Source: a virus
Virus record (IMG/VR): IMGVR_UViG_3300006128_000071
Span: 1 to 22,368 of that record
Length of the DNA: 22,368 bases
Reading direction: 5' to 3' (one strand)
Part shown: one piece after another, positions 1 through 22,362 of the stretch
How the letters are laid out: every line of letters begins with the position of its first letter
Position numbering within the stretch: the first letter of the stretch is position 1
Made by a program: the position numbers and the translations under genes
Notes under the pieces: generated by a model
What the model saw: only the letters and a program-made list of their open reading frames with translations
The model's database searches: none
Told to the model about the DNA's origin: nothing

Positions 1-35
1 CCAAAGACATTTTTAGGATTTTCAATATATGTCAT
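1..35 (-). CDS. Partial CDS, unknown protein (N-terminus only)
   Basis: Only the first 11 codons are in the window; the gene runs off the left edge. The reading MTYIENPKNVF begins at an ATG whose upstream sequence AAGAGGGAAACAAACATG matches the leader of the genes starting at 2219 (minus) and 2463 (plus). A full copy of the repeated promoter/operator lies at 54-90. The conserved leader and the correctly placed ATG are the evidence for a gene. The product cannot be identified from so few residues. Confidence 0.6.
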   Translation of the reverse strand, partial: MTYIENPKNVF

Positions 36-53
36 GTTTGTTTCCCTCTTGAT

Positions 54-90
54 GATATAACCATTATATCAAACAGGCAATTAATGGAAA
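54..90 (-). promoter_or_regulatory. Early-type promoter with operator-like inverted repeat, copy A
   Basis: Read on the minus strand, the -35 box is TTTCCA (90-85), the spacer is 16 bases beginning TTAATT, and the -10 box is TATAAT (68-63). The 17-base inverted repeat GATATAATGGTTATATC (70-54) covers the -10 box and the probable start point. It would drive the gene at 35. The same arrangement recurs at 1657-1693, 2238-2274 and 2408-2444. Confidence 0.75.
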
Positions 91-118
91 TAGCCAAAAC
101 GCATTTTTTTTAAAAAAA

Positions 119-334
119 TTAGTGGGATCTGATCCATGCACCCATCAAATAAATGACAAGCAACATACCATTGACAATGGTTAAATTCAAATCTTTTACT
201 CGAATAGCCCAAATAAAATAAAGAGCTGATCCAATATTGAGACACATAATATTATAAGGATCCAATCGGCATGTAGTACAAACGGCACCTGATAATACAA
301 ATATCAAGGCCGTCCATTTTAAAAAACTATTCAT
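119..334 (-). CDS. Small integral membrane protein (71 aa)
   Basis: The protein consists of about three short hydrophobic segments: residues ~5-22 (WTALIFVLSGAV), ~32-46 (CLNIGSALYFIWAI) and ~53-69 (TIVNGMLLVIYLMGA). A polar stretch, RVKDLN, separates the last two. The layout resembles small phage and bacterial inner-membrane proteins with an 'NIGS..W.I...NL.IVN..LL.IY' pattern, but that likeness is from memory and gives no function. I chose the ATG at 334 over a TTG at 349 because it follows the preceding gene's stop by two bases after a slight overlap, as is usual in this cluster. Role unknown; acting at the host inner membrane is likely. Confidence 0.65.
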   Translation of the reverse strand: MNSFLKWTALIFVLSGAVCTTCRLDPYNIMCLNIGSALYFIWAIRVKDLNLTIVNGMLLVIYLMGAWIRSH

Positions 335-521
335 TATGAATAACTTCAATTGTGTTTTCTAAATTAAATACATAACCACATGCTTGTAGAAACTTCTTAA
401 ATCGTTCTAGCATATCATCAACTGTAAAATCTTCTTCACTAAATTCATGATGCACCCTTTCATTATGCATCAAACCTGAAGACGAATCATATTCATTCAT
501 ATGAAATTCAAAAGTTCGCAT
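327..521 (-). CDS. Conserved-looking hypothetical protein (64 aa)
   Basis: A small acidic protein. Its N-terminal part looks like a strand pair (RTFEFHMNEYDSSSG), followed by VHHEFSEEDF and an amphipathic helix with ERFKKFLQACGYVF. I recall similar small proteins in T4-like phage genomes, with a pattern of strand, 'HHEF', then a helix ending 'FL..CG'. None that I know has a function. The start ATG shares one base with the stop codon of the metallophosphoesterase gene (TAATG), so the two are probably translationally coupled, with GGAAA upstream as a ribosome binding site. Confidence 0.7.
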   Translation of the reverse strand: MRTFEFHMNEYDSSSGLMHNERVHHEFSEEDFTVDDMLERFKKFLQACGYVFNLENTIEVIHNE

Positions 522-1084
522 TAATCATTTCCTTCTTCAAAAGTTTTAAAGCCTATAGTTCCACCTTCTGCTTCTATACGAGCAAGAACGTCTTCATATA
601 AAATAGGAGCAAAATCAGTTTGCTCTACACATACACAATGATATCTAACATCTATAATTCCATCCTTTATAACACGATTAGAATGAGTATGGCCATGAAT
701 ATTAGTACCAAATCGTCTTAGATGTTGTTCATGAATTGGAATATGTGATAGAATCATTCCATTCATAACATGATATGCCTTAATATCATTAAAGTGTTGA
801 ACATAATCATGAAGCTTAAAAATATCATGATTACCTTTGATCAACACCTTTTCGCCATTAAGACGTGTCATAATATGAAGAGAACGGCGATTGATCACCA
901 CATCTCCTAAATGATATACCTTATCATTTGGTTTAACTTTTGCATTCCACAGCTTAACCATAGCTTCATCCATCTCATCTGAATTATCCCACGGACGAAG
1001 TTTGGTTACACCATCAGATCGCATGAATTTGCAAACATTAGCATGCCCAAAATGAGTATCTGATGTTAAAAATACAGAAGGCAT
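521..1084 (-). CDS. Calcineurin-like metallophosphoesterase (187 aa)
   Basis: This is a compact single-domain metallophosphoesterase. The metal-binding motifs occur in order: SDTHFGH (D9, H11), HLGDV (G60-D61), KGNHD (N85, H86), LSHIP (H114) and IHGHTH (H132, H134). Enzymes of this fold bind two divalent metals and hydrolyse phosphomono- or phosphodiesters. The DTHFGH start and short length match a group common in phages whose substrate is not established, so neither a cyclic-nucleotide nor a nucleic-acid substrate can be claimed. The ATG has a good AAGGA ribosome binding site and lies two bases after the upstream gene's stop. It is cytoplasmic, with no signal peptide. All expected ligands are present, so it is probably active. 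Confidence 0.93.
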   Translation of the reverse strand: MPSVFLTSDTHFGHANVCKFMRSDGVTKLRPWDNSDEMDEAMVKLWNAKVKPNDKVYHLGDVVINRRSLHIMTRLNGEKVLIKGNHDIFKLHDYVQHFNDIKAYHVMNGMILSHIPIHEQHLRRFGTNIHGHTHSNRVIKDGIIDVRYHCVCVEQTDFAPILYEDVLARIEAEGGTIGFKTFEEGND

Positions 1085-1086
1085 AA

Positions 1087-1299
1087 TTAATCCTTAAGCT
1101 CAAATCGATTCTTTAACTTATTAATACGACTCATATACTCTGAAATATCAACATGATCATCAGTTGCATATGGTAGAACTTCTTCTAACATAGAAATCAG
1201 TTCTGCAAAAGCCTTTTTATATTCATCTTCACCAGGTAAAGTTTTACCATGATCTTTTGGAGTTCTCATCATGGCAATTAATTCTAATGTACTGGTCAC
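1087..1299 (-). CDS. Hypothetical helical protein with GTG start (70 aa)
   Basis: A small, charged, probably all-helical protein with no recognised motif. One helix runs through DEYKKAFAELISMLEEVLP and another through SEYMSRINKLKNRFELK. The start is a GTG overlapping the upstream stop codon as GTGA, with AGGAAA six bases upstream. This supports the GTG rather than the later ATG-ATG at residues 10-11. Four-base overlaps of this kind indicate coupled translation with the gene ending at 1296. Function unknown. Confidence 0.65.
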   Translation of the reverse strand: MTSTLELIAMMRTPKDHGKTLPGEDEYKKAFAELISMLEEVLPYATDDHVDISEYMSRINKLKNRFELKD

Positions 1300-1637
1300 G
1301 AGTTTTTCCTAGGATTATGATAATAAACAGAAAAATGCGTTGCATCATCAATTAGGCAATCTTGTTGAGCCATAGAAATACGCCGAATATAAGTTTGACC
1401 ATGCGCACCTTTCATAGTATTAAAGGTGCGCGCACCTTTCATAGTACGACCTACAGATTGCATCCGTGGTCCTCTGTAACGAAATCTAACTCCAATGCCT
1501 GCCTTCTTATATGTGGCAAGAAAGAGCTCTCGATGCTCCATCGGCACCCAGTATGCGATAGCAAAATGCCCTTCAGGCACTGGATAAAGATCAGAGAAAC
1601 TATCCGCAATATCTTTATACAACTTTTGATTTGTCAT
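1296..1637 (-). CDS. Hypothetical protein with an internal TMKGA duplication (113 aa)
   Basis: A soluble protein beginning MTNQKLYKDIADSF and ending in a beta-like HFSVYYHNPRKNS. The middle is basic (VRFRYRGPRMQSVGR) and includes two copies of TMKGA encoded by a 17-base direct repeat (1403-1446). The open frame extends upstream to 1772, but that extension runs through a promoter/operator copy. The ATG at 1637 sits directly after the AAGAGGAAAAAACATC leader and is the convincing start. I recall short phage proteins with a similar basic 'RYRGPR' region and FxVY-type C-terminus, without known function. It is the first gene of a promoter-led set including the genes at 1087, 521, 327 and 119. Confidence 0.7.
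   Translation of the reverse strand: MTNQKLYKDIADSFSDLYPVPEGHFAIAYWVPMEHRELFLATYKKAGIGVRFRYRGPRMQSVGRTMKGARTFNTMKGAHGQTYIRRISMAQQDCLIDDATHFSVYYHNPRKNS
1403..1446. repeat. 17-base direct repeat with an 18-base palindrome at its junction
   Basis: GCGCACCTTTCATAGTA occurs at 1403-1419 and again at 1430-1446. Between and overlapping them is the perfect palindrome AAAGGTGCG/CGCACCTTT (1422-1439). The repeat lies in frame inside the gene 1296-1637 and produces the duplicated TMKGA peptide. It looks like a recent local duplication. Confidence 0.85.
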
Positions 1638-1656
1638 GATGTTTTTTCCTCTTGAT

Positions 1657-1693
1657 GATATAACCATTATATCAAACAGGCAATTAATGTAAA
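1657..1693 (-). promoter_or_regulatory. Early-type promoter with operator-like inverted repeat, copy B
   Basis: On the minus strand the -35 box is TTTACA (1693-1688), the spacer is 16 bases beginning TTAATT, and the -10 box is TATAAT (1671-1666). The GATATAATGGTTATATC repeat lies at 1673-1657. The -35 region overlaps the last codons and stop (TAA) of the upstream gene 1684-2004. It drives the gene starting at 1637 through a slightly different leader (AAGAGGAAAAAACATC). Confidence 0.75.
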
Positions 1694-2004
1694 CTCTCAA
1701 TATCGATATATACGTCTTTTTTATAGATATTTTTATCGAAGCCATCAATAATGAAACCAGGCGAGCACCCACAAGGACATCCAGCCTTTTGACTCCATTT
1801 ATAGCTAATATTATTAAGATCTATGCCAATAGAACTAAGGCCTTGTCGAAGAATATCGCGATATACATTAAGCGGTCGAGATCGTCGATTTATAAATTGA
1901 TCTAAAACACTTTCATTTTTTGGAAAAATATACACACGAGACTTTACCTTATATCCATTTTTGGAATAACCTTCATTATCACGTAATGTAATGTCAAGTT
2001 TCAT
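1684..2004 (-). CDS. Conserved-type phage hypothetical with CPCGCSPGF motif (106 aa)
   Basis: The C-terminal half holds YKWSQKAGCPCGCSPGFIIDG, with three cysteines in CxCxC spacing that could bind a metal. I recall this 'SxKAGCxCGCSPGF' signature from many phage proteins of unknown function, often ending in a strand-forming DVYIDI segment as here. The N-terminal half (KLDITLRDNEGYSKNGYKVKSRVYIF) looks like beta strands. The ATG at 2004 lies two bases after the stop of the preceding gene, which favours it over the TTG-type start at 2019. The 3' end carries the -35 region of the next promoter. Cytoplasmic; function unknown. Confidence 0.75.
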   Translation of the reverse strand: MKLDITLRDNEGYSKNGYKVKSRVYIFPKNESVLDQFINRRSRPLNVYRDILRQGLSSIGIDLNNISYKWSQKAGCPCGCSPGFIIDGFDKNIYKKDVYIDIESLH

Positions 2005-2006
2005 GA

Positions 2007-2219
2007 TTAAAAATTCCAATTAATACGAGGAGTTACAAGATTATAATATTCTTCTTCAGTGTCAAAAGCTATATATTCTTCACTCATATAATCCATATAT
2101 TCTTTATATTCCATCAATTCTTCAGTAGACATTTCTTCTCTTGACCACATTTCAGAACCATCTTCAAAATTATAAGTGAATCCACCATAATTTTCTAGAA
2201 TCTTTTGAAAAGTCATCAT
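2007..2219 (-). CDS. Small acidic hypothetical protein (70 aa)
   Basis: A strongly acidic small protein with dense Glu, Tyr and Met (for example EELMEYKEYMDYMSEEYIAFDTEEEYYN) and no recognised domain. Acidic early phage proteins of this size often bind and inhibit host proteins or mimic DNA, but nothing here identifies a target. It is the first gene of the leftward unit under promoter copy C and uses the conserved AAGAGGGAAACAAAC leader. Two adjacent ATG codons (2219 and 2216) could both serve; the first is given. Confidence 0.7.
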   Translation of the reverse strand: MMTFQKILENYGGFTYNFEDGSEMWSREEMSTEELMEYKEYMDYMSEEYIAFDTEEEYYNLVTPRINWNF

Positions 2220-2237
2220 GTTTGTTTCCCTCTTGAT

Positions 2238-2274
2238 GATATAACCATTATATCAAACAGGCAATTAATGGAAA
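2238..2274 (-). promoter_or_regulatory. Early-type promoter with operator-like inverted repeat, copy C
   Basis: On the minus strand the -35 box is TTTCCA (2274-2269), the spacer is 16 bases beginning TTAATT, and the -10 box is TATAAT (2252-2247). GATATAATGGTTATATC is at 2254-2238. It drives the leftward gene at 2219. It is nearly identical to copy A, including the upstream A/T tract, and faces copy D across the divergent region. Confidence 0.75.
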
Positions 2275-2319
2275 TAGCCAAAACACATTTTTTTAAAAAT
2301 AATTTTTTGGCTTAGTTGG

Positions 2320-2347
2320 TTGACATTAATTATTTTATAAGGTACAG
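2320..2347 (+). promoter_or_regulatory. Isolated TTGACATTAATT -35 element without a good -10 box
   Basis: GGTTGACATTAATT at 2318-2331 is identical to the -35 region of the promoters at 2660 and 3597. At the standard 16-base spacing the -10 position (2342-2347) reads GTACAG, inside the 34-base palindrome, which is a poor match to TATAAT. It may be a weak, regulated or decayed promoter pointing towards the gene at 2463. Confidence 0.35.
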
Positions 2348-2367
2348 GCGCGCCTGTACCTTATAAA
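2334..2367. repeat. 34-base perfect palindrome in the divergent intergenic region
   Basis: The left arm TTTATAAGGTACAGGCG (2334-2350) is the exact reverse complement of the right arm (2351-2367), with no spacer; the centre is GGCGCGCC. It lies close to the midpoint between the divergent promoter copies C and D. It contains the only GC-rich bases of an otherwise A/T-rich intergenic region (2220-2462). No long T run directly follows it, so it does not look like an ordinary terminator. Confidence 0.9.
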
Positions 2368-2407
2368 TTGGGGCTTAAATTTTTTTAAAAAAAATGCATC
2401 TGGCCTA

Positions 2408-2444
2408 TTTTCATTAATTGCTAATTGGATATAATGGTTATATC
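2408..2444 (+). promoter_or_regulatory. Early-type promoter with operator-like inverted repeat, copy D (rightward)
   Basis: The -35 box is TTTTCA (2408-2413), the spacer is 16 bases beginning TTAATT, and the -10 box is TATAAT (2430-2435). GATATAATGGTTATATC is at 2428-2444. The leader that follows (AAGAGGGAAACAAACATG) is identical to those of the leftward genes at 35 and 2219. It drives the rightward gene at 2463. Confidence 0.75.
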
Positions 2445-2462
2445 ATCAAGAGGGAAACAAAC

Positions 2463-2663
2463 ATGATGACCGAAAATTCTAGTTATACCGACAAATTGGT
2501 TGACCTTATCAAAAATAATGAAGGCGATAATTGGTCTATTTACGCTGTAGGTTATTTGCAAGAAATGCTTAATTGGTTTGAAATGATTGATCCTAAAGTT
2601 TCAGAAAATGTTAAAATGCATTTGGAAGCGAAGCTTCTTAAAATCCTTGAAAATGGCGGTTGA
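2463..2663 (+). CDS. Hypothetical protein, first gene of the rightward early unit (66 aa)
   Basis: A small soluble protein beginning MMTENSSYTDKLVDLIK, predicted helical throughout, with an aromatic patch (YLQEMLNWFEMID) and a C-terminal helix (KMHLEAKLLKILENGG). The ATG pair at 2463/2466 directly follows the conserved AAGAGGG leader. An open frame reaches 2418 but would include the promoter, so I rejected the longer form. Its stop codon TGA forms part of the TTGACA -35 box of the next promoter. I do not recognise the family. A role in early takeover is possible from context only. Confidence 0.7.
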   Translation: MMTENSSYTDKLVDLIKNNEGDNWSIYAVGYLQEMLNWFEMIDPKVSENVKMHLEAKLLKILENGG

Positions 2664-2732: not shown

Positions 2733-3575
2733 ATGCCTAGAGGCGTATATGATCGTAGCTCTACTAAAGCTCGTATGCAGCAAATGACATATATCGAACC
2801 AGTTTCTCATGAGACTGATGAAGAAATTGATGCTCGTATTTCAGAAAGCTTTGAGATTTTGTCTGATCTGACTGAAGCATCTCTTACTGGTGATGTACGG
2901 GCTATTGTAGTATCTGGCCCTGCAGGTGTTGGTAAATCACACACTGTAGAAGAAAAGCTGGCTCAATGGGATCCTAATGGCATTAATCATACCATTATCA
3001 AGGGTTATGTTCGAGCTACTGGTCTTTACAAGCTTCTTTATCAGCATTCTGAAGCTGGCAAGGTTCTAGTGTTTGATGATGCTGATACTGTTTTTTTTGA
3101 TGACACATCTCTAAATATGCTTAAGGCTGTGTGCGATAGTAATAAGAAGCGTACAGTTTCTTATATGACTGAAGGTGCATTGTATGATGAAGAATCTTCA
3201 GTTAAGCTTCCTAAGCAATTTGATTTCAATGGCACTATTATTTTCATCACCAATCTAGATTTTGATTCTATGATTGATAGGGGTCATAAGTTGGCGCCTC
3301 ATTTGCAAGCAATGCTTTCTCGTGCACACTATATCGATCTTAAGATGAAGACTAAGCGTGATTATATGATTCGTATTCGTCAAGTTCTTAAAAATGGTCT
3401 TCTTGCCGAACAAGGCCTTGATGCTATTGCTCAACAAGAAGTTGTTGCCTTTATTGATAAGAACCAAAATAGTATGCGTGAGTTGTCTCTTCGTATGGCT
3501 CTAAAGGTTGCCGCAATTCGTAAGTCTTCTCCTCAAAAATGGGAAAAGATGTCGCGCGTCACATGTTGTCGCTAA
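2733..3575 (+). CDS. AAA+ family ATPase (280 aa)
   Basis: A single AAA+ module. Walker A is GPAGVGKS (residues 62-69), Walker B is VLVFDDAD (111-118), sensor 1 lies in IIFITN (169-174), a candidate arginine finger is R197 in AMLSRAHYIDL, and a helical lid with SMRELSLRMALKVA (247-260) could supply sensor 2. The catalytic residues are intact, so ATP hydrolysis is expected. The partner is unknown; AAA+ proteins of this length in T4-like phages are mostly unassigned. It starts MPRGVYDRS; the ATG at 2733, seven bases after AGAGGA, is preferred to the TTG at 2727. It has its own strong promoter (copy E) and no signal or membrane segment. It is not a T4 clamp loader or gp41 helicase as far as I can see. 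Confidence 0.88.
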   Translation: MPRGVYDRSSTKARMQQMTYIEPVSHETDEEIDARISESFEILSDLTEASLTGDVRAIVVSGPAGVGKSHTVEEKLAQWDPNGINHTIIKGYVRATGLYKLLYQHSEAGKVLVFDDADTVFFDDTSLNMLKAVCDSNKKRTVSYMTEGALYDEESSVKLPKQFDFNGTIIFITNLDFDSMIDRGHKLAPHLQAMLSRAHYIDLKMKTKRDYMIRIRQVLKNGLLAEQGLDAIAQQEVVAFIDKNQNSMRELSLRMALKVAAIRKSSPQKWEKMSRVTCCR

Positions 3576-3596: not shown

Positions 3597-3624
3597 TTGA
3601 CATTAATTCCAAATTTGTTATTAT
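3597..3624 (+). promoter_or_regulatory. Early-type promoter, copy F (no operator repeat)
   Basis: TTGACA (3597-3602), a 16-base spacer beginning TTAATT, and TATTAT (3619-3624). It shares the -35 block GGTTGACATTAATT with 2660, but the GATATA...TATATC inverted repeat is absent. It would transcribe the small ORF at 3663 and the genes 3734-4726. Confidence 0.75.
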
Positions 3625-3662: not shown

Positions 3663-3737
3663 ATGCTCATTAATGAGCTTCGGCGTGCACGCATCAAATA
3701 TTACTATCCTCCTCTTTTAAATAAGGAATCTGAATGA
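3663..3737 (+). CDS. Possible very small protein, or the remnant of a longer one (24 aa)
   Basis: A short frame whose stop overlaps the next gene's ATG as ATGA, with ELRRARIKYYYPPLL in the middle, which reads like real protein rather than noise. The same frame extends upstream to an ATG at 3630 but is broken by a TAA at 3642-3644 after MEII. So either translation starts at 3663, or this is a nonsense-disrupted gene. The ribosome binding site upstream of 3663 is weak. The ATG at 3630 would lie at or almost at the start of the transcript from promoter F. Function unknown. Confidence 0.45.
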   Translation: MLINELRRARIKYYYPPLLNKESE

Positions 3738-4075
3738 CATTCGTTTTGACAGAAGTTAAAGCAAAGTCCATTATTGATCTTCTTTGTAATTATGATAGTA
3801 GTCTATTTTATGATGAGAAGCTTCCTCTTCATAAGCTAAATATTATTATTGAAGATATGTATCCGGAAGCTGGATATTGTATTCCTGATGAAGATTCTGA
3901 TGAATATGAGATGGGATTAATTTCTGATACAGGTACATACAAGGCTGCTGTCAATCTTATTGCTCATGAACTAGTGCATCTTGTTCAAATGCATAAGAAT
4001 CAAGAGGTTGGACATAATACACCTATTTGGTATTTTTATATAAATAAAGCTAAACAACAAGATATTATTATCTAA
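3734..4075 (+). CDS. SprT-like HExxH zinc-binding protein (113 aa)
   Basis: The C-terminal half contains HELVH (residues 78-82), the two-histidine zinc site and catalytic glutamate of many metalloproteases. About 11 residues later comes GHNTPIWYFYINKA, which resembles the 'GHG..F.....' segment that supplies a third ligand in SprT-like and related proteins. The protein is short and lacks the C-terminal zinc ribbon of full SprT, so it is a minimal domain. It could be a protease or a zinc-binding accessory protein; the substrate is unknown. It starts with a strong AAGGA site and overlaps the preceding small ORF by four bases. No signal peptide is seen, so it is probably cytoplasmic. Confidence 0.75.
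   Translation: MTFVLTEVKAKSIIDLLCNYDSSLFYDEKLPLHKLNIIIEDMYPEAGYCIPDEDSDEYEMGLISDTGTYKAAVNLIAHELVHLVQMHKNQEVGHNTPIWYFYINKAKQQDIII
4039..4046 (+). promoter_or_regulatory. Candidate T4-type late promoter for the secreted-protein gene
   Basis: TATAAATA occurs on the plus strand 39 bases before the ATG at 4085, within the spacing range seen for the late promoters of the capsid genes here. It lies inside the 3' end of the upstream coding region (YFYINKA), so codon composition alone could have produced it. Confidence 0.4.
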
Positions 4076-4726: not shown

Positions 4727-5104
4727 TAAATGCAAGATTTTTACAAATAATATAACTATAATCATTCCACCAAATAGAAATATAGCTGCACGAGTTTCTT
4801 TGACTCGTGCAGCTTTTGTTTTATATACACTCTTTATTTTTTTTATTTTAGTTGGCTTAAATGTTTTAGATGGTTTTATAATTGATGATAATTTAATTGT
4901 TTTAGTTTTTTTAGAAATATATCCAGTACTTAATTTTTGTGTAGTTTTAACTCGTCTAAATCCTAGCCCTTGAGTAAAAGATATTCTGCTAGAACTTCCA
5001 GTGCGTGAACTAACTGTAGTACTATCACCTTTATTATTATCATGATCCGTTTGATAATAATTAGTTGAACCGCTTTTTCCAGTTTTTCTAGTACGATATG
5101 CCAT
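4718..5104 (-). CDS. Basic, Ser/Thr-rich protein with C-terminal membrane anchor (128 aa)
   Basis: Residues 1-105 are hydrophilic and strongly basic, first Ser/Thr/Asn-rich (TTVSSRTGSSSRIS) and then lysine-rich (KPSKTFKPTKIKKIKSVYK). Residues ~107-127 form one hydrophobic helix (IFLFGGMIIVILFVKIL) at the very end. This predicts a tail-anchored inner-membrane protein with a cytoplasmic basic domain. No family is recognised. It follows the papain-like protease gene by 17 bases and probably shares its transcript, so a late role near the membrane is plausible. There is no clear Shine-Dalgarno directly before the ATG. Part of the coding region doubles as a terminator for the opposing strand. Confidence 0.65.
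   Translation of the reverse strand: MAYRTRKTGKSGSTNYYQTDHDNNKGDSTTVSSRTGSSSRISFTQGLGFRRVKTTQKLSTGYISKKTKTIKLSSIIKPSKTFKPTKIKKIKSVYKTKAARVKETRAAIFLFGGMIIVILFVKILHLLF
4784..4820 (+). terminator. Rho-independent terminator of the rightward unit, inside a minus-strand gene
   Basis: The 11-base perfect stem AGCTGCACGAG/CTCGTGCAGCT (4784-4794, 4804-4814) has a nine-base loop and is followed on the plus strand by TTTTGTTTT. No T run follows it on the minus strand, so it acts on rightward transcripts. It lies within the coding region of gene 4718-5104, where it encodes AARVKETRAA. Confidence 0.85.
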
Positions 5105-5121
5105 AACTATTACAAAAAATA

Positions 5122-5883
5122 TTATCCTCTAATTGTCCATGCATCGGTACCAAGAGAATTATTTTCTAGATATTCTGCTGGAATCCAAAAATGGCCATGA
5201 TCGCCCCAATCTTTACCCCAGCTATTTCTAACTTCATAATATCTTTTATTGGTTCCTCTAAAATTTTCATCATAACCTATAACAGCAACTGCATGACCAC
5301 CTAAACATCTTTCACGATCACCTGGCATAGGAACTACGCCGGTTTTAGATACTTCTTCAGATTCAAAAGATTCAAAAATTTGAATACCAATCATAAATGG
5401 ATAACCATCTGCCAAACATTGCCGATAGTCATTTGGATCACCATCATCAAGACTAAAATATTGTGTGATCTTATTTAACGCACCTTCTTGTAATTCAATA
5501 GGTGGAGGTTCTATTGTAAATTTAGAAATATCATATGGCCAATGTTCTTCTAGACCAATTCCTTTTGTATTAAGAATTTTAATGGCATCTCTAAGATAGG
5601 CACCACTATCTTCATTGATGGTGCCTTCTAATTCTCTTTCCCAATAATAGAGAGCTAAACGAGAGAATGGACCACCTCCATGTTCATATGTAAAGATACC
5701 TAAAGCAGCGTGTGCAGAACATGCTCCTAAAGATCCTTGATCATATGGTAGTTCTTTAAACTTATCTCTTAGACTAACTTTCTCTGGAAAGACTGGAGAA
5801 TCGTCAATTGATCTAACAGCTTTAAATCTAATATCTGAAGGATCTAATTTATCCTTTAGATAACCATATACTCGTCTTGTCAT
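5122..5883 (-). CDS. Papain-family (C1A) cysteine protease (253 aa)
   Basis: The papain catalytic set is complete. Oxyanion-hole Q49 and nucleophile C55 are in DQGSLGACSAHA, H197 is in CLGGHAVAVIGYD, and N220 is in YEVRNSWGKDWGDHGHFWIP. The N-terminus (YGYLKDKLDPSDIRF...VSLRDKF) is the short lead-in typical of bacterial and viral C1A peptidases, with no long inhibitory propeptide and no signal peptide. The substrate is unknown. Its place 16 bases downstream of a virion protein gene, with a strong AAGGAG site, suggests late expression. It might process virion proteins, be packaged, or act on host proteins. T4 itself has no such enzyme; its prohead protease gp21 is separate and also present here. 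Strong call for family, weak for role. Confidence 0.93.
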   Translation of the reverse strand: MTRRVYGYLKDKLDPSDIRFKAVRSIDDSPVFPEKVSLRDKFKELPYDQGSLGACSAHAALGIFTYEHGGGPFSRLALYYWERELEGTINEDSGAYLRDAIKILNTKGIGLEEHWPYDISKFTIEPPPIELQEGALNKITQYFSLDDGDPNDYRQCLADGYPFMIGIQIFESFESEEVSKTGVVPMPGDRERCLGGHAVAVIGYDENFRGTNKRYYEVRNSWGKDWGDHGHFWIPAEYLENNSLGTDAWTIRG

Positions 5884-8182: not shown

Positions 8183-8190
8183 TATTTATA
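8183..8190 (-). promoter_or_regulatory. T4-type late promoter for the 747-residue virion protein
   Basis: TATAAATACAG on the minus strand, 40 bases upstream of the ATG at 8142 and just after the gp23 terminator. Confidence 0.85.
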
Positions 8191-9645: not shown

Positions 9646-9653
9646 TATTTATA
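9646..9653 (-). promoter_or_regulatory. T4-type late promoter for the major capsid gene
   Basis: TATAAATAACT on the minus strand, 33 bases upstream of the gp23 ATG and just after the gp22 coding region. Confidence 0.88.
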
Positions 9654-10946: not shown

Positions 10947-10954
10947 TATTTATA
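10947..10954 (-). promoter_or_regulatory. T4-type late promoter for the scaffold gene
   Basis: TATAAATACTATT on the minus strand, which matches the extended T4 late consensus as I know it. It is 24 bases upstream of the gp22 ATG and directly after the gp21 stop. Confidence 0.9.
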
Positions 10955-12815: not shown

Positions 12816-12823
12816 TATTTATA
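12816..12823 (-). promoter_or_regulatory. T4-type late promoter upstream of the gp67-like gene
   Basis: TATAAATATAA on the minus strand, 22 bases upstream of the ATG at 12793 and just after the portal stop. It can serve the gp67-like, 334-residue and gp21 genes. Confidence 0.82.
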
Positions 12824-12831
12824 TTTTATAA

Positions 12832-15195
12832 TTATTGACTTAATTGCGGTTCTTGAGGAGCCTGTCCACTCTGTTGAGGAGCTTCTTCTTGATCACCTGC
12901 ATTAGAATCATCAGTCATAGATTGTTGTGGTAAGAATTTCTGTTGAATTTCAGATTGTTTAGCTTGACGCTTAACATCTATAACCATTTCTTCATCAATT
13001 TGTTTTTCAATTTTATTAATGTCTTCATCAGTCATTTGAAGAATATTTTTTCTTACCCATTCTTCGGAATAATATTTGCCGACATATGGATCTAACATAG
13101 CAAGAGTATTAATTCTATTTGTAAGAATTTCTGATTCTTTTAATTCAGCAAAATAATTGTCAACCTGAAAATTGAAATGAATATTATTTTTAATATCATC
13201 CCATTCTGATTCGGCAATAACACCAGTTAAAACGAGTTGTTTTTCTAAAGCTTTATAAAATATTTCAGAAAATTTTGTTCTTAAACGTATAATAAACTTT
13301 TGAAATTTTAATTCATCTCTAGTAATTTCTGAAGATCTACCAAGACTAAATCCAGAATCAGAAATCATACGAGATACTGGAACATTAAGTGATTGATATA
13401 ATTTTTTTTCAAAATATTCAACGTCAGCTAATTCACCTAGATTTTGTCCTGATGGTAAAGTGGTAACCTGTGTACCTCCACCATCTGCACGTCTAGGAAA
13501 CCAATAATCTTCAAGCATAGTGTTTTTAGTATATACACCAGCATCTAGAAGATACGTGTGATGACTATGATATGTTTCTTCTTGGTCGATGGTTAATGCA
13601 GCTACTGTCATCTTTTCATCTAAAAACTCAACAGATACTACTTTATGATTATGGAGTTGTTCAGCACGATATCCTCTGGATCCTGAACTTCCCTTTATGT
13701 GTGTTCTATTAAGATTTAAATTACGACAATAGGCACTAAGATTTTCAATTATTTCTGAATTACCATCAGGAGTGATAACTTTCCAAGTTTTACATTGAAT
13801 AGTTAATTTAGGATCATCTTTTGTATCAAAGGAGAAAATAGATTCTTCTTTAAGTCCTTGTTGTTCTTTCCAAGAGGCAATTTCTTTATGTGTAAATTCC
13901 CAAGTTTTGGTATCATTCTTATAAATTTGTTCATATTTTCTACCATTTGGAATTATAGATTTATGACGACGATATCCTGGAATTAGAGATTCTCCAATAG
14001 CCAAATCTTTGGCTTCAATAAATCCTTTATTCCAAACTGGAAATTTATGATCTGGAGTACAAATAACACTTTTACCATTATCAAAAGTAACACGAACAAC
14101 ATCACTATTCTTTTTAGTAATTCCTGCCCATGAAATTGGCCCTGGATAAAACTTTCCTGTTTTAGGATCACAAGAATATACCCAATTCAATTTACCTTCA
14201 TTATATTCAGAAATAATTTCTTCTATTGTTAGTGTTCTACCATCCAATAGAGGAATTTTAGTATCAAGGGCATAACACATAAACTTACGATCATCTCGAA
14301 TATTGCCGGTAGTAGCATCATAAATCAAGCGATTTTTATGTTTAACCATAACTTCGCGAACATATTGTTCGGCTTTCATTTTCGGAAGATTGCCTACATC
14401 AATACTAAAAATACGACGTTCTGGTGCACGACTAATGCGATAGATTACAGTGGCATCTTCTAGAATACGAAGTTGATTTAAAGGTTTAATAGCTTTATGC
14501 AAATAACCTAAAACAATTTTATTGTCTTTATCTACTACACCAGAAGTAACATGAAGGATTGAATCTTTAGAAATTTGTAATCCTTGATTATCCATGCCAG
14601 AAGCTGAAGCCCCTTTAAAGCCTCTTTCATTATACATATAAAATTCACTATCGCTTACATTGACATATACTTGATCTTTACGCATACGTTTTACTGCACG
14701 GATTTTTCTAATTTTTCGAGGATCAATATATCGAAGTTCTTTAATTCCTTCACGAGGATTATTGACGTCAATCATAACATGATAATATACTCTACCATCT
14801 ATATACCAACGTTTAAAAATTTCATATCCATAATTGTTAAAATCTAAAAGATTTGAAATTTTATCCCATTCTTCAGAAATTCTTTCTTTAATATTATCTG
14901 CAAAATCTAAATCATCGAGATCAATTTCTACAATTTTTTTCTTATCTTCTTTAACAATTGCTTCAGACACGATGTCATTAACAGCCAATTCTACTTCTGG
15001 CTGAATTGCCATTTCTCTATATTTTGCTACAATTTCAGCTTCTGTTCTAGCAGAACCTTCTAAATCTAAATAGGTACCATATGTACCACCTGCAGAAACA
15101 ACTAGAGCCCCATCATCCGTCTCTCTAGGAGTGAATGATGGGATATCTAGTTGTTCAGCTTCACGACGGATTTCAAATCCAAACAATTTTACCAT
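12832..15195 (-). CDS. 20: Portal vertex protein interrupted by an in-frame intein (787 aa precursor)
   Basis: Homolog of T4 gp20, the dodecameric portal through which DNA enters the head and which initiates head assembly. Flanking residues 1-306 and 559-787 join to a 535-residue portal, close to T4's 524. Typical stretches are VELAVNDIVSEAI, LLDFNNYGYEIFKRWYIDG, YIDPRKIRKI, ILEDATVIYRISRAPERRIFSIDVGNLPK, RDDRKFM followed after the intein by TMLEDYWFPRR, LPSGQNLGELADVEYFEKKLYQSLNVPVSRM and the C-terminal QQ/PQ-rich tail. The intein must be spliced out for function, because it breaks a highly conserved portal segment. The AGGAAAAT site precedes ATG 15195. A weak late-promoter variant lies at 15226-15233. 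Confidence 0.95.
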   Translation of the reverse strand: MVKLFGFEIRREAEQLDIPSFTPRETDDGALVVSAGGTYGTYLDLEGSARTEAEIVAKYREMAIQPEVELAVNDIVSEAIVKEDKKKIVEIDLDDLDFADNIKERISEEWDKISNLLDFNNYGYEIFKRWYIDGRVYYHVMIDVNNPREGIKELRYIDPRKIRKIRAVKRMRKDQVYVNVSDSEFYMYNERGFKGASASGMDNQGLQISKDSILHVTSGVVDKDNKIVLGYLHKAIKPLNQLRILEDATVIYRISRAPERRIFSIDVGNLPKMKAEQYVREVMVKHKNRLIYDATTGNIRDDRKFMCYALDTKIPLLDGRTLTIEEIISEYNEGKLNWVYSCDPKTGKFYPGPISWAGITKKNSDVVRVTFDNGKSVICTPDHKFPVWNKGFIEAKDLAIGESLIPGYRRHKSIIPNGRKYEQIYKNDTKTWEFTHKEIASWKEQQGLKEESIFSFDTKDDPKLTIQCKTWKVITPDGNSEIIENLSAYCRNLNLNRTHIKGSSGSRGYRAEQLHNHKVVSVEFLDEKMTVAALTIDQEETYHSHHTYLLDAGVYTKNTMLEDYWFPRRADGGGTQVTTLPSGQNLGELADVEYFEKKLYQSLNVPVSRMISDSGFSLGRSSEITRDELKFQKFIIRLRTKFSEIFYKALEKQLVLTGVIAESEWDDIKNNIHFNFQVDNYFAELKESEILTNRINTLAMLDPYVGKYYSEEWVRKNILQMTDEDINKIEKQIDEEMVIDVKRQAKQSEIQQKFLPQQSMTDDSNAGDQEEAPQQSGQAPQEPQLSQ
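13522..14277 (-). mobile_element. Portal intein (252 aa) with a remnant homing-endonuclease insert
   Basis: Precursor residues 307-558. It begins with Cys in CYALDTKIPLLDGRTL (block A), has CTPDHKFPVWN (block B, T379, H382), and ends HTYLLDAGVYTKN before Thr. The last residue is Asn but the penultimate residue is Lys, not the usual His. The middle carries KYEQIYKNDTKTWEFTHKEI (420-438), like the lead-in of HNH homing inserts in phage inteins, but no HH...N...H core follows. It also carries TWKVITPDGNSEIIENLSAY (470-489) with RTHIKG, like a NUMOD-type DNA-binding repeat. Homing activity is therefore probably lost while splicing is kept. Confidence 0.92.
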
Positions 15196-18186: not shown

Positions 18187-18194
18187 TATTTATA
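18187..18194 (-). promoter_or_regulatory. T4-type late promoter for the tail sheath gene
   Basis: TATAAATAATA on the minus strand, 48 bases upstream of the gp18 ATG and after the large terminase stop. The 74-base gap holds nothing else. Confidence 0.85.
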
Positions 18195-18212: not shown

Positions 18213-20360
18213 TTAATTTAGCCAATTAGAAGAATCTTCGAAATCAATATCTTCTGGATCTCTCCAAATATCATCTATAAATCCAAAAGGACTAACATTC
18301 TCATCGACTAATCTTTTATTATATTCAAGCACTTCAAGTCGAGCATCATTATTTGATAATAATTTAAAATATTCTTGATGAACTAACCATGAAAATAATA
18401 CACAACACATGACCAAATCATCATGTTCACCATCCTCAGCTGCATATTTTGCGTTATGCTCTACAAATCGATTCATTTCATATAATAGATCATAATCATT
18501 AATTATAAGTTTATCATTTTCAACTAAGCTTTTAAAGTTAGCGCATCCAATTCTTTTGACAGATGTAGTAGTGCGTACTCCAATAGTATATCTAAATCCT
18601 CCCATAGTACCACCTACTTTTTGTCCATTTCTACCTTTGACTTTTGTAGAAAGCACATGTTCATATTCAAGATCATGTTGAAGAATGTCTGCTACTTGGC
18701 CTCCAATATCATTGGTTTCTACTAAGACATATGCATTATTATAGTGTTTTGCAAGATTGTAGATAATGGTTGGATATACTAAAGGAGATATTTCATTATT
18801 TCTATATTTAGCAACTATTTTATATGGAATTTCTGTAATATCAAATACTATAAAAGCAGAATAGTCTATTCCAGCACCACGAGAAGTATCTACAGATATT
18901 AGATATACATGATCTTTTTTTACTTCTTCATACATATCTACATCACCAGAAGTTACTATTGGTTCTATATAGACAAGTTGAGACAATTTAGAAGCATCAA
19001 TAAGAGTATTTGAACTACCTAAAAATTCACAATTATATTCCTGATTAAATTGCCTTTCACTCGTATTAGAAATAGTTTCTTCTTGCCAAGCTTTATCTCT
19101 TCCTGGTATCATTGACCAATGCACTTCACATCTGACATACCTATTCTTACCATTTTCAGAATCTTTCCAAAGTTTATAAAAATAATTCATACCTTTTGGA
19201 GTAGAAGTGATAATAGTTTTTGTAGTTTTACCAGATGAGATTGTAGGATAAACAGAAGTAAAGAATGATTCTGCTAAATTGTTTGGTACGAATGCAAACT
19301 CATCGAGATACACAATATTATATGTTTGTCCACGTGCAGATGATCCGGTGGTTGCAGTAGCAATGGCTTTTGAACCATTTTCAAGTTCAATATCTCCTTC
19401 ATTCCATCGAACTACACCTTGTTGCAACCAATTTGGCAAATACTCAAACATCATTTTAATTCTACTGAGAATTTCTCTAGCTTGTTTATCTTTATTTGCT
19501 AGAATGGCAACTGAAAATGTATCATTGAATATAATTTTATGCAGCAAATATGCTGCTACAGTCGTCGTATTATGTGATAGAATTCCATTGGTATAAAATC
19601 TATGATCTTCTGAACAAACAGTAATATCATACATATTTGATACTCTATTTGTTTCTGTTATTGATATAACTTCTTCTTTACCAGATTCTGTTAAAATATA
19701 ATCACCAGGAACTAAATCTTTACAAAAAACTTCAGATCCATCTTCTCTAAAAAGAATATGAGTATCTGCACACGTTAAACTGTGAGAAGTTGTTACTAAT
19801 TCCCATTCAATATATTCTATAGTTTTGTAAATAGTTGAAGCTGGTTTCCAGCCAGTATCAGTCCATATATCTATATCTTTTAGATCAATAGAATCAATGA
19901 ATTTGCGTTCTACTTGATCAGAAAGTCTAGGCAAATCTGAACTATTTGTTTTTGAAATATGTGCGATGTTAGATCTTTCATTTTCAACTGACAGATTTGA
20001 CACTACATTAGATTTGGATCGCTCATATAACTCTTCTATTCTTACACTATAAGTCTCTTTTGATTTTTTATCAAATACTTTAACAATAGTATTCATATGA
20101 AAACACTTGCCGACTTGGCGTGGCATCTTACAAATTACGAATCGATTATTTTCAAAAGTATTGATCATATTCTCTTGGAATTCCCAAAGATCAAAATTAA
20201 CAAGTCCTTTATCGACATGAACAATTTTGCAATATTTTTTAACAAAATAAATTTGATCGTTTAAGCACTTTTGATATTCTCGGGTCTGTTCAAGAGTCCA
20301 AGATATAGGCACATTTACGTTTTTAAGATTAATATTATTTAAATAATATGGAGATGGCAT
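18213..20360 (-). CDS. 17: Large terminase subunit with an intein inside Walker A (715 aa precursor)
   Basis: Homolog of T4 gp17, the ATP-driven DNA packaging motor and headful nuclease. The spliced product would be 536 residues. The ATPase domain has MPRQVGK (79-85) joined by splicing to TTTVAAYLL, Walker B IVYLDE (349-354) and the coupling motif STPKG (386-390). The nuclease domain shows SVDTSRG (D491), LVETND (E548) and EHDDLV (D647/D648), the expected acidic triad. The intein separates the Walker A lysine from the following threonines, so the motor cannot bind ATP until splicing occurs. The ATG shares one base with the gp16 stop (TAATG), as expected for coupled gp16-gp17 translation. No late promoter of its own is seen. 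Confidence 0.96.
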   Translation of the reverse strand: MPSPYYLNNINLKNVNVPISWTLEQTREYQKCLNDQIYFVKKYCKIVHVDKGLVNFDLWEFQENMINTFENNRFVICKMPRQVGKCFHMNTIVKVFDKKSKETYSVRIEELYERSKSNVVSNLSVENERSNIAHISKTNSSDLPRLSDQVERKFIDSIDLKDIDIWTDTGWKPASTIYKTIEYIEWELVTTSHSLTCADTHILFREDGSEVFCKDLVPGDYILTESGKEEVISITETNRVSNMYDITVCSEDHRFYTNGILSHNTTTVAAYLLHKIIFNDTFSVAILANKDKQAREILSRIKMMFEYLPNWLQQGVVRWNEGDIELENGSKAIATATTGSSARGQTYNIVYLDEFAFVPNNLAESFFTSVYPTISSGKTTKTIITSTPKGMNYFYKLWKDSENGKNRYVRCEVHWSMIPGRDKAWQEETISNTSERQFNQEYNCEFLGSSNTLIDASKLSQLVYIEPIVTSGDVDMYEEVKKDHVYLISVDTSRGAGIDYSAFIVFDITEIPYKIVAKYRNNEISPLVYPTIIYNLAKHYNNAYVLVETNDIGGQVADILQHDLEYEHVLSTKVKGRNGQKVGGTMGGFRYTIGVRTTTSVKRIGCANFKSLVENDKLIINDYDLLYEMNRFVEHNAKYAAEDGEHDDLVMCCVLFSWLVHQEYFKLLSNNDARLEVLEYNKRLVDENVSPFGFIDDIWRDPEDIDFEDSSNWLN
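19569..20105 (-). mobile_element. Terminase mini-intein (179 aa), no endonuclease
   Basis: Precursor residues 86-264. It begins CFHMNTIVKVFD (block A-like), has a block B-like HSLTCADTHILF (H201), and ends with NMYDITVCSEDHRFYTNGILSHN (blocks F and G), with the canonical His-Asn before Thr. Residues ~115-155 form a polar, low-conservation linker (ERSKSNVVSNLSVENERSN) where an endonuclease would sit. No LAGLIDADG, HNH or GIY-YIG motif is visible. It is therefore a splicing-only mini-intein, unable to home by itself. Confidence 0.93.
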
Positions 20361-22354: not shown

Positions 22355-22362
22355 TATTTATA
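22355..22362 (-). promoter_or_regulatory. T4-type late promoter for the gp14-gp17 unit
   Basis: TATAAATAGAT on the minus strand, 23 bases upstream of the gp14 ATG. No other late promoter lies between here and gp18 in a credible position, so it probably feeds gp14, gp15, gp16 and gp17. Confidence 0.85.

Follow-up and report, generated by a model that had tools for sequence, protein, structure and literature searches.

A palindrome repeated over the -10 box of T4-like early promoters is probably the core of a copied promoter cassette

A palindrome that covers the -10 box of several promoters raises the question of whether it is an operator for a dimeric regulator or a consequence of the way in which the promoter itself is built. 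The window analysed here, meaning the whole stretch of 22,368 bases, is the entire IMG/VR virus record IMGVR_UViG_3300006128_000071, a fragment of a T4-superfamily phage. The 17-mer GATATAATGGTTATATC, a perfect 7-3-7 inverted repeat (GATATAA-TGG-TTATATC), was found exactly at 54-70 (-), 1657-1673 (-), 2238-2254 (-) and 2428-2444 (+), with the coordinates and strands recorded in an initial annotation made from the letters alone. With a probability of roughly 0.77, this 17-mer forms the central part of a strong early promoter of the T4 type that is used by host sigma70 and was copied as a cassette, and the palindrome is largely a by-product. What was found is mostly ordinary.

All four 17-mers contained the -10 box TATAAT, located 16 bp from a -35-like hexamer, and the -10 regions lay 5' of early-type genes and formed a promoter family, in agreement with the initial annotation (promoters are named by position, Table 1). 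The -35 elements TTTCCA, TTTACA, TTTTCA or TTGACA, at 16 bp, were within the 15–18 bp required of a T4-type early promoter. The extended -10 element (TGn) was TGA in P54, P1657, P2238 and P2660; the -15 base of P2428 was G, with GATA present and GGA instead of the full TGn. A stretch resembling TTTTTTTAAAAAAAA, A-rich and possibly UP-like, was located 5' of the -35 in three of the four copies. A leader and an ATG followed directly 3' of the promoters in the orientation right for early genes, and the ORF downstream of P2660 was a homologue of the T4-type NrdC.10. The site of P2660 at 2680-2696 (GATATGATGAGTATATC) retained the five outer bases of each arm, and the TATC half was absent from the promoter at 3597, both as first described.

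These elements suggest how each part of the palindrome could have arisen. A host sigma70-type RNA polymerase would read the -35, TGn, -10, GG discriminator and initiator. The left arm would correspond to the GA of the extended -10 (TGn, n = A) together with the beginning of TATAAT, and the centre to the end of the -10 box plus the GG discriminator. The right arm would combine the last part of the discriminator with TATCA, the start region; within TATCA, T(-1)A(+1)T(+2) would match a general initiator, and the following C(+3)A(+4) may be a consensus specific to the phage family.

Furthermore, the identity among the copies was longer than noted earlier and extended well past 17 bases. Positions 19-120 and 2203-2304 were 91% identical across 102 nt, and 2212-2305 and 2377-2470 formed an inverted pair of 94 nt with 87% complementarity. 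When the four copies were aligned, a near-continuous common block began with CATTAATTGC, included the 17-mer and ended with ATCAAGAGG; the likeness stopped at the start codon (ATG). Since the copies belong to longer repeats, the identity of the 17-mer among them is no evidence of selection on the 17-mer itself. BLASTP among the three comparable downstream genes and the ATPase gave no relationship to each other. A scan of the window for the 17-mer with up to three mismatches returned 10 matches versus 0.19 expected from dinucleotide shuffles; this copy number is far above chance, and cassette duplication is its cause. One promoter-plus-leader cassette would have been copied ahead of several unrelated early ORFs, and the copies were probably homogenised by recombination.

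The comparison with a related phage, G004 (contig L314), pointed in the same direction. Gene order is the same in G004 and the window over the stretch that begins with the AAA ATPase and ends with the C1-peptidase gene, and the divergent promoter pair is part of it. P2238 and P2428 were 89% identical, as were their G004 counterparts at 13997 and 14151, whereas the orthologous promoter pairs of the window and G004 were only 69% and 67% identical. This excess of identity within a phage over that between orthologues is what duplication or homogenisation inside one phage would produce, and homogenisation is its probable cause. The TATCA promoters of G004 consisted of GATATAATGG followed by ATATATCA, ATCTATCA, TCATATCA or TATCATCA, with the left side fixed and the inner right side variable.

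When IMG/VR was scanned for the exact 17-mer, 23 stretches were obtained, and most of those without the promoter cassette resembled coding DNA. The initial annotation had proposed that confinement of the 17-mer to recently duplicated DNA would speak against a shared regulator, and this was largely what was observed: outside the window, the exact 17-mer was borne on the cassette only in L020/L027. The other contexts in which it sits outside the cassette argue against an operator.

A duplicated cassette could also be primarily a module for recombination and only secondarily a promoter, like the PeSLs, repeated promoter-terminator cassettes that are cited in PMC4503421 as mediators of gene shuffling among T4-like phages. 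The location of the copies ahead of unrelated genes, the inverted pair and the concerted pattern are compatible with this idea. Nevertheless, no terminator stem-loop of the intrinsic type was found beside the window cassettes, the terminator-like sites of the window being only at 607-625 and 4784-4814, and this explanation is hardly credible. Two other features of the intergenic DNA were recorded. A perfect 17+17 palindrome, TTTATAAGGTACAGGCG/CGCCTGTACCTTATAAA, without a T run, was located at 2334-2367 between the divergent promoters. Orphan TTGACATTAAT elements without a good -10 were detected in G004 at L314:14088(+), 14063(-), 13413(-), 12087(-), 9969(-) and 9149(-) and, together with that of the window (Table 1), they lay 63–88 nt 5' of real promoters, usually with an A/T-tract palindrome between.

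The operator suggested by the initial annotation would be bound by a dimeric repressor or switch protein, which would shut off the early genes by covering the -10 box and the start site. The perfect dyad in four promoters is in favour of this proposal, as are the retention of the outer GATA-N9-TATC at P2660 and in most TATCA promoters of relatives and the lack of the site in another promoter of the same phage. Nevertheless, its two arms did not behave as a unit. In the 14 distinct sites of window geometry, a small sample of low power, 86 complementary pairs were counted versus 85.6 when right arms were permuted among left arms (p 0.51). Among the clade promoters, a set to which the more distantly related contigs G006, G008 and G011 also belong, TATCA occurred without GATA in five and GATA without TATCA in 13. 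The spacing between the half-sites was not fixed, TATCA being located 5, 2 or 4 nt beyond the -10 with GATA unchanged, and often at 2 nt, not 5 nt, in the relative G010. The promoter sets were defined by patterns and include some false matches, and the promoters of one phage are not independent.

The left arm was also dispensable in more distant phages. In Acinetobacter phage Acj9, 22 promoters combined a -35 with a TATAAT-like hexamer that was followed, after N5, by TATCA, and the -13:+2 pair was retained in only eight of them because the base ahead of TATAAT is usually G. The blastn match that led to Acj9 (E 0.08) is no evidence by itself, and this result is carried by independent promoter scans. 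Additionally, 147 further IMG/VR promoters were chosen by TT[TG]AC-N17/18-TATAATGGNNNTATCA, with the left triplet unconstrained; GA was present at -14/-13 in 24, and TG at -15/-14, with any third base, in 71. Acj9, further phage records of T4 size in which there are many copies, and chance matches were all part of that set; such matches cannot account for the lack of the left arm in the predicted promoters of Acj9 itself. Lastly, no small DNA-binding protein or regulator was recognised with Pfam and PHROGs in the ten early ORFs of the window, a 22-kb fragment. The proposal that the bases beyond the -10 box are one half of a dimeric operator was thus not supported, given arms without covariation, TATCA kept without the left arm in relatives, Acj9 and IMG/VR, and variable spacing. 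A rigid palindromic operator is unlikely, and control of the early genes through a dimeric protein at this dyad is quite improbable.

The same conservation data bear on a DNA hairpin promoter of the kind read by the phage N4 virion polymerase, with a 7-bp stem and a 3-base loop. The window copies could fold in this way. This candidate was rejected, since relatives do not conserve the stem or the inner bases of its arms. The promoters also have a complete -35 and a complete -10, no N4-type polymerase was seen, although none was searched for, and the chance that this candidate is correct is negligible.

The capsid-closest isolates were also analysed. The major capsid protein of the window was nearest to those of T4-superfamily phages, with Stenotrophomonas phage DLP6 at 68% identity and Caulobacter phage Cr30, Sinorhizobium phages phiM12 and phiN3, Pelagibacter phage Mosig and Methylophilales phage Melnitz among the other nearest. 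The promoter pattern of the window was not found in DLP6, Cr30, phiN3, phiM12, Mosig or Melnitz, and no TATCA was found among the consensus promoters of the four capsid-closest isolates scanned in detail. Other dyads were seen in these genomes. Melnitz (L364-L370) had a repeated promoter, GCCTTGACATTTGTT-N5-AACATG-TATACT, and in part of the copies ATA-AGTATA came next and completed a further dyad across the -10 box, which may be the same kind of by-product or something specific. CAGG...CCTG dyads were found directly 3' of TATAAT in promoters of phiM12 (L355:2290, L361:16991 and L358:4790) and in DLP6 (L338:593).

As the initial annotation had suggested, there was a conserved element beyond the -10 box. 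It was TATCA, present in some promoters of one phage and absent from others, and the conserved arrangement as a whole was asymmetric (TGn-TATAAT-GG-N3-TATCA). In 133 control promoters, which came from outside the clade and were chosen only by their -35, TTAAT and -10, the base 6 nt beyond the hexamer was T in 67%, the base at 7 nt was A in 62% and the base at 8 nt was T in 57% (background T 27%, A 41%). TAT was found at that offset in 46 of the 133 and at any other offset in 13 or fewer. From established promoter knowledge, these positions would be -1, +1 and +2 at the usual spacing, that is, an initiator. Since unrelated phage promoters also favour TAT there, the first three bases of TATCA are generic, a further point against an operator.

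Several observations weigh against the palindrome being a by-product of ordinary promoter parts. TATCA at the 5-nt offset was found in only two of the 133 control promoters, and in the TATCA promoters of Acj9 and the window clade C(+3) and A(+4) hardly varied; we know of no requirement for these two bases by RNA polymerase alone. The TATCA of G010 located 2 nt from the -10 falls off the usual initiator position. Moreover, the mean symmetry of the clade promoters was 65% in the window-type geometry versus 43% or less in any slid version, a difference due for the most part to GATA and TATCA both being fixed. C(+3)A(+4) would be an addition specific to the group, and the simplest cause that can be offered for it is selection of the start site or promoter escape.

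Alternatively, TATCA may be an asymmetric site or start-region signal for a phage or host factor that determines when, or how strongly, a subclass of early promoters is used, with the left arm irrelevant. Its presence in about 40 clade and 22 Acj9 promoters, its rarity in the controls, its two main offsets in G010 and the occurrence of promoters with and without it in one phage are consistent with such a role. However, cassette descent and duplication could account for its conservation within a phage, the equal offset in Acj9 and the window suits a start-region consensus read by RNA polymerase, and no candidate factor was found; we consider this explanation doubtful. Equally tentative is the more specific proposal that GG-N3-TATCA is an asymmetric start-region element for a factor common to distant T4-like phages (the window clade and the Acj9 type), marking a separately timed subclass of early promoters. 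A regulatory role for the asymmetric TATCA is thus conceivable.

Table 1. Predicted promoters, their targets and cassette copies in the window
Feature	Positions	Strand	Details
P54	53..90	(-)	-35 TTTCCA 90-85; TGA TATAAT, -10 at 68-63; GG discriminator; TATCA 57-53
P54 likely +1	56	(-)	A; placed from spacing
P54 target gene		(-)	runs off window edge
P1657	1656..1693	(-)	TTTACA 1693-1688; -10 at 1671-1666; TATCA 1660-1656
P1657 target	1637-1299	(-)	113-aa ORF
P2238	2237..2274	(-)	TTTCCA 2274-2269; -10 at 2252-2247; TATCA 2241-2237
P2238 targets	2219-2007 and 2004-1684	(-)	ORFs; orthologous promoter in G004, L314:13997(-)
P2428	2408..2445	(+)	TTTTCA 2408-2413; -10 at 2430-2435; TATCA 2441-2445
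P2428 target	2463-2663	(+)	66-aa ORF; P2238 is the divergent partner
P2660	2660..2697	(+)	TTGACA; TGA TATGAT 2682-2687; TATCA 2693-2697
P2660 target	2733-3575	(+)	NrdC.10-like AAA ATPase
P3597	3597..3629	(+)	TTGACA; TATTAT 3619-3624; without TATCA; 5' of ORF 3734-4075
Full-length cassette copy	32..120	(-)	A-tract region, -35, -10, leader, ribosome-binding site
Full-length cassette copy	2212..2305	(-)	left arm of divergent pair
Full-length cassette copy	2377..2470	(+)	right arm of divergent pair
Short cassette copy	1644..1693	(-)	limited to core promoter and leader; A-tract region upstream not in common
Orphan TTGACATTAAT without -10	2320..2330	(+)	88 nt 5' of P2428; counterpart in G004

The remainder of the window held other features of this T4-like phage. 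A papain-family C1 peptidase gene was located at 5122-5883 (-), with a G004 counterpart 83% identical. A gp20-like portal protein and a terminase large subunit were encoded at 12832-15195 (-) and 18213-20360 (-), respectively; the portal contained an intein (Pfam Intein_splicing), and the terminase had an insert ahead of its ATPase domain, the terminal residues of which resembled those of an intein; this possible second intein was not confirmed by Pfam. The T4 late promoter motif TATAAATA was found at 8183-8190, 9646-9653, 10947-10954, 12816-12823, 18187-18194 and 22355-22362 (all -), about 10–50 nt 5' of the structural-region ORF starts 8142, 9612, 10922, 12805, 18138 and 22331. The total of eight TATAAATA sites versus 3.9 by chance is little excess, yet six were directly ahead of gene starts. 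Two 17-nt copies of GCGCACCTTTCATAGTA, 27 nt apart, were present within an ORF (1403-1446).

These results indicated that ordinary promoter parts together with cassette duplication can yield a convincing palindromic "operator", and that a simple test for claims of this kind is whether the right half occurs where the left half is absent. They add an uncultured T4-like group to the phages known to have early promoter consensuses of their own, and they leave a single additional element open to testing, the C and A conserved past the presumed start. Because the mechanism by which T4 early promoters are shut off is described as still unknown (PMC2988021), a start-region element limited to a subset of early promoters is of interest.

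Among known systems, the early promoters of T4 carry UP, -35, TGn and -10 elements plus additional consensus regions (PMC2988021). The window promoters resemble them in element order, near-consensus hexamers, an A-rich upstream stretch that may be UP-like, the location ahead of small early-type ORFs, the many copies per genome and the additional consensus positions (PMC2988021). They differ in the -35, which is TTGACATTAAT or TTTNCATTAAT versus GTTTAC in T4, and T4 itself has almost no TATCA. The PeSLs, as far as they are described where cited in PMC4503421, are likewise repeated early promoter cassettes 5' of unrelated genes, and differ from the window copies by their adjoining terminator hairpin. 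Acj9 (HM004124) has TATAAT-GG-N3-TATCA at the same 5-nt spacing in its 22 promoters, one of which has the TATCATCAAGAGGAAA of the leader in common with the window; its -35 is GTTTAC, and its promoters form no dyad because mostly G, not A, precedes the -10. Finally, five T4-like phages, RB69, RB49, RB43, 44RR and Aeh1, have each their own variant of the early consensus (PMC1524935) and, like the window, keep the core and add conserved positions of their own near the start site, although the added positions are different ones, for example C at -3 to -1.

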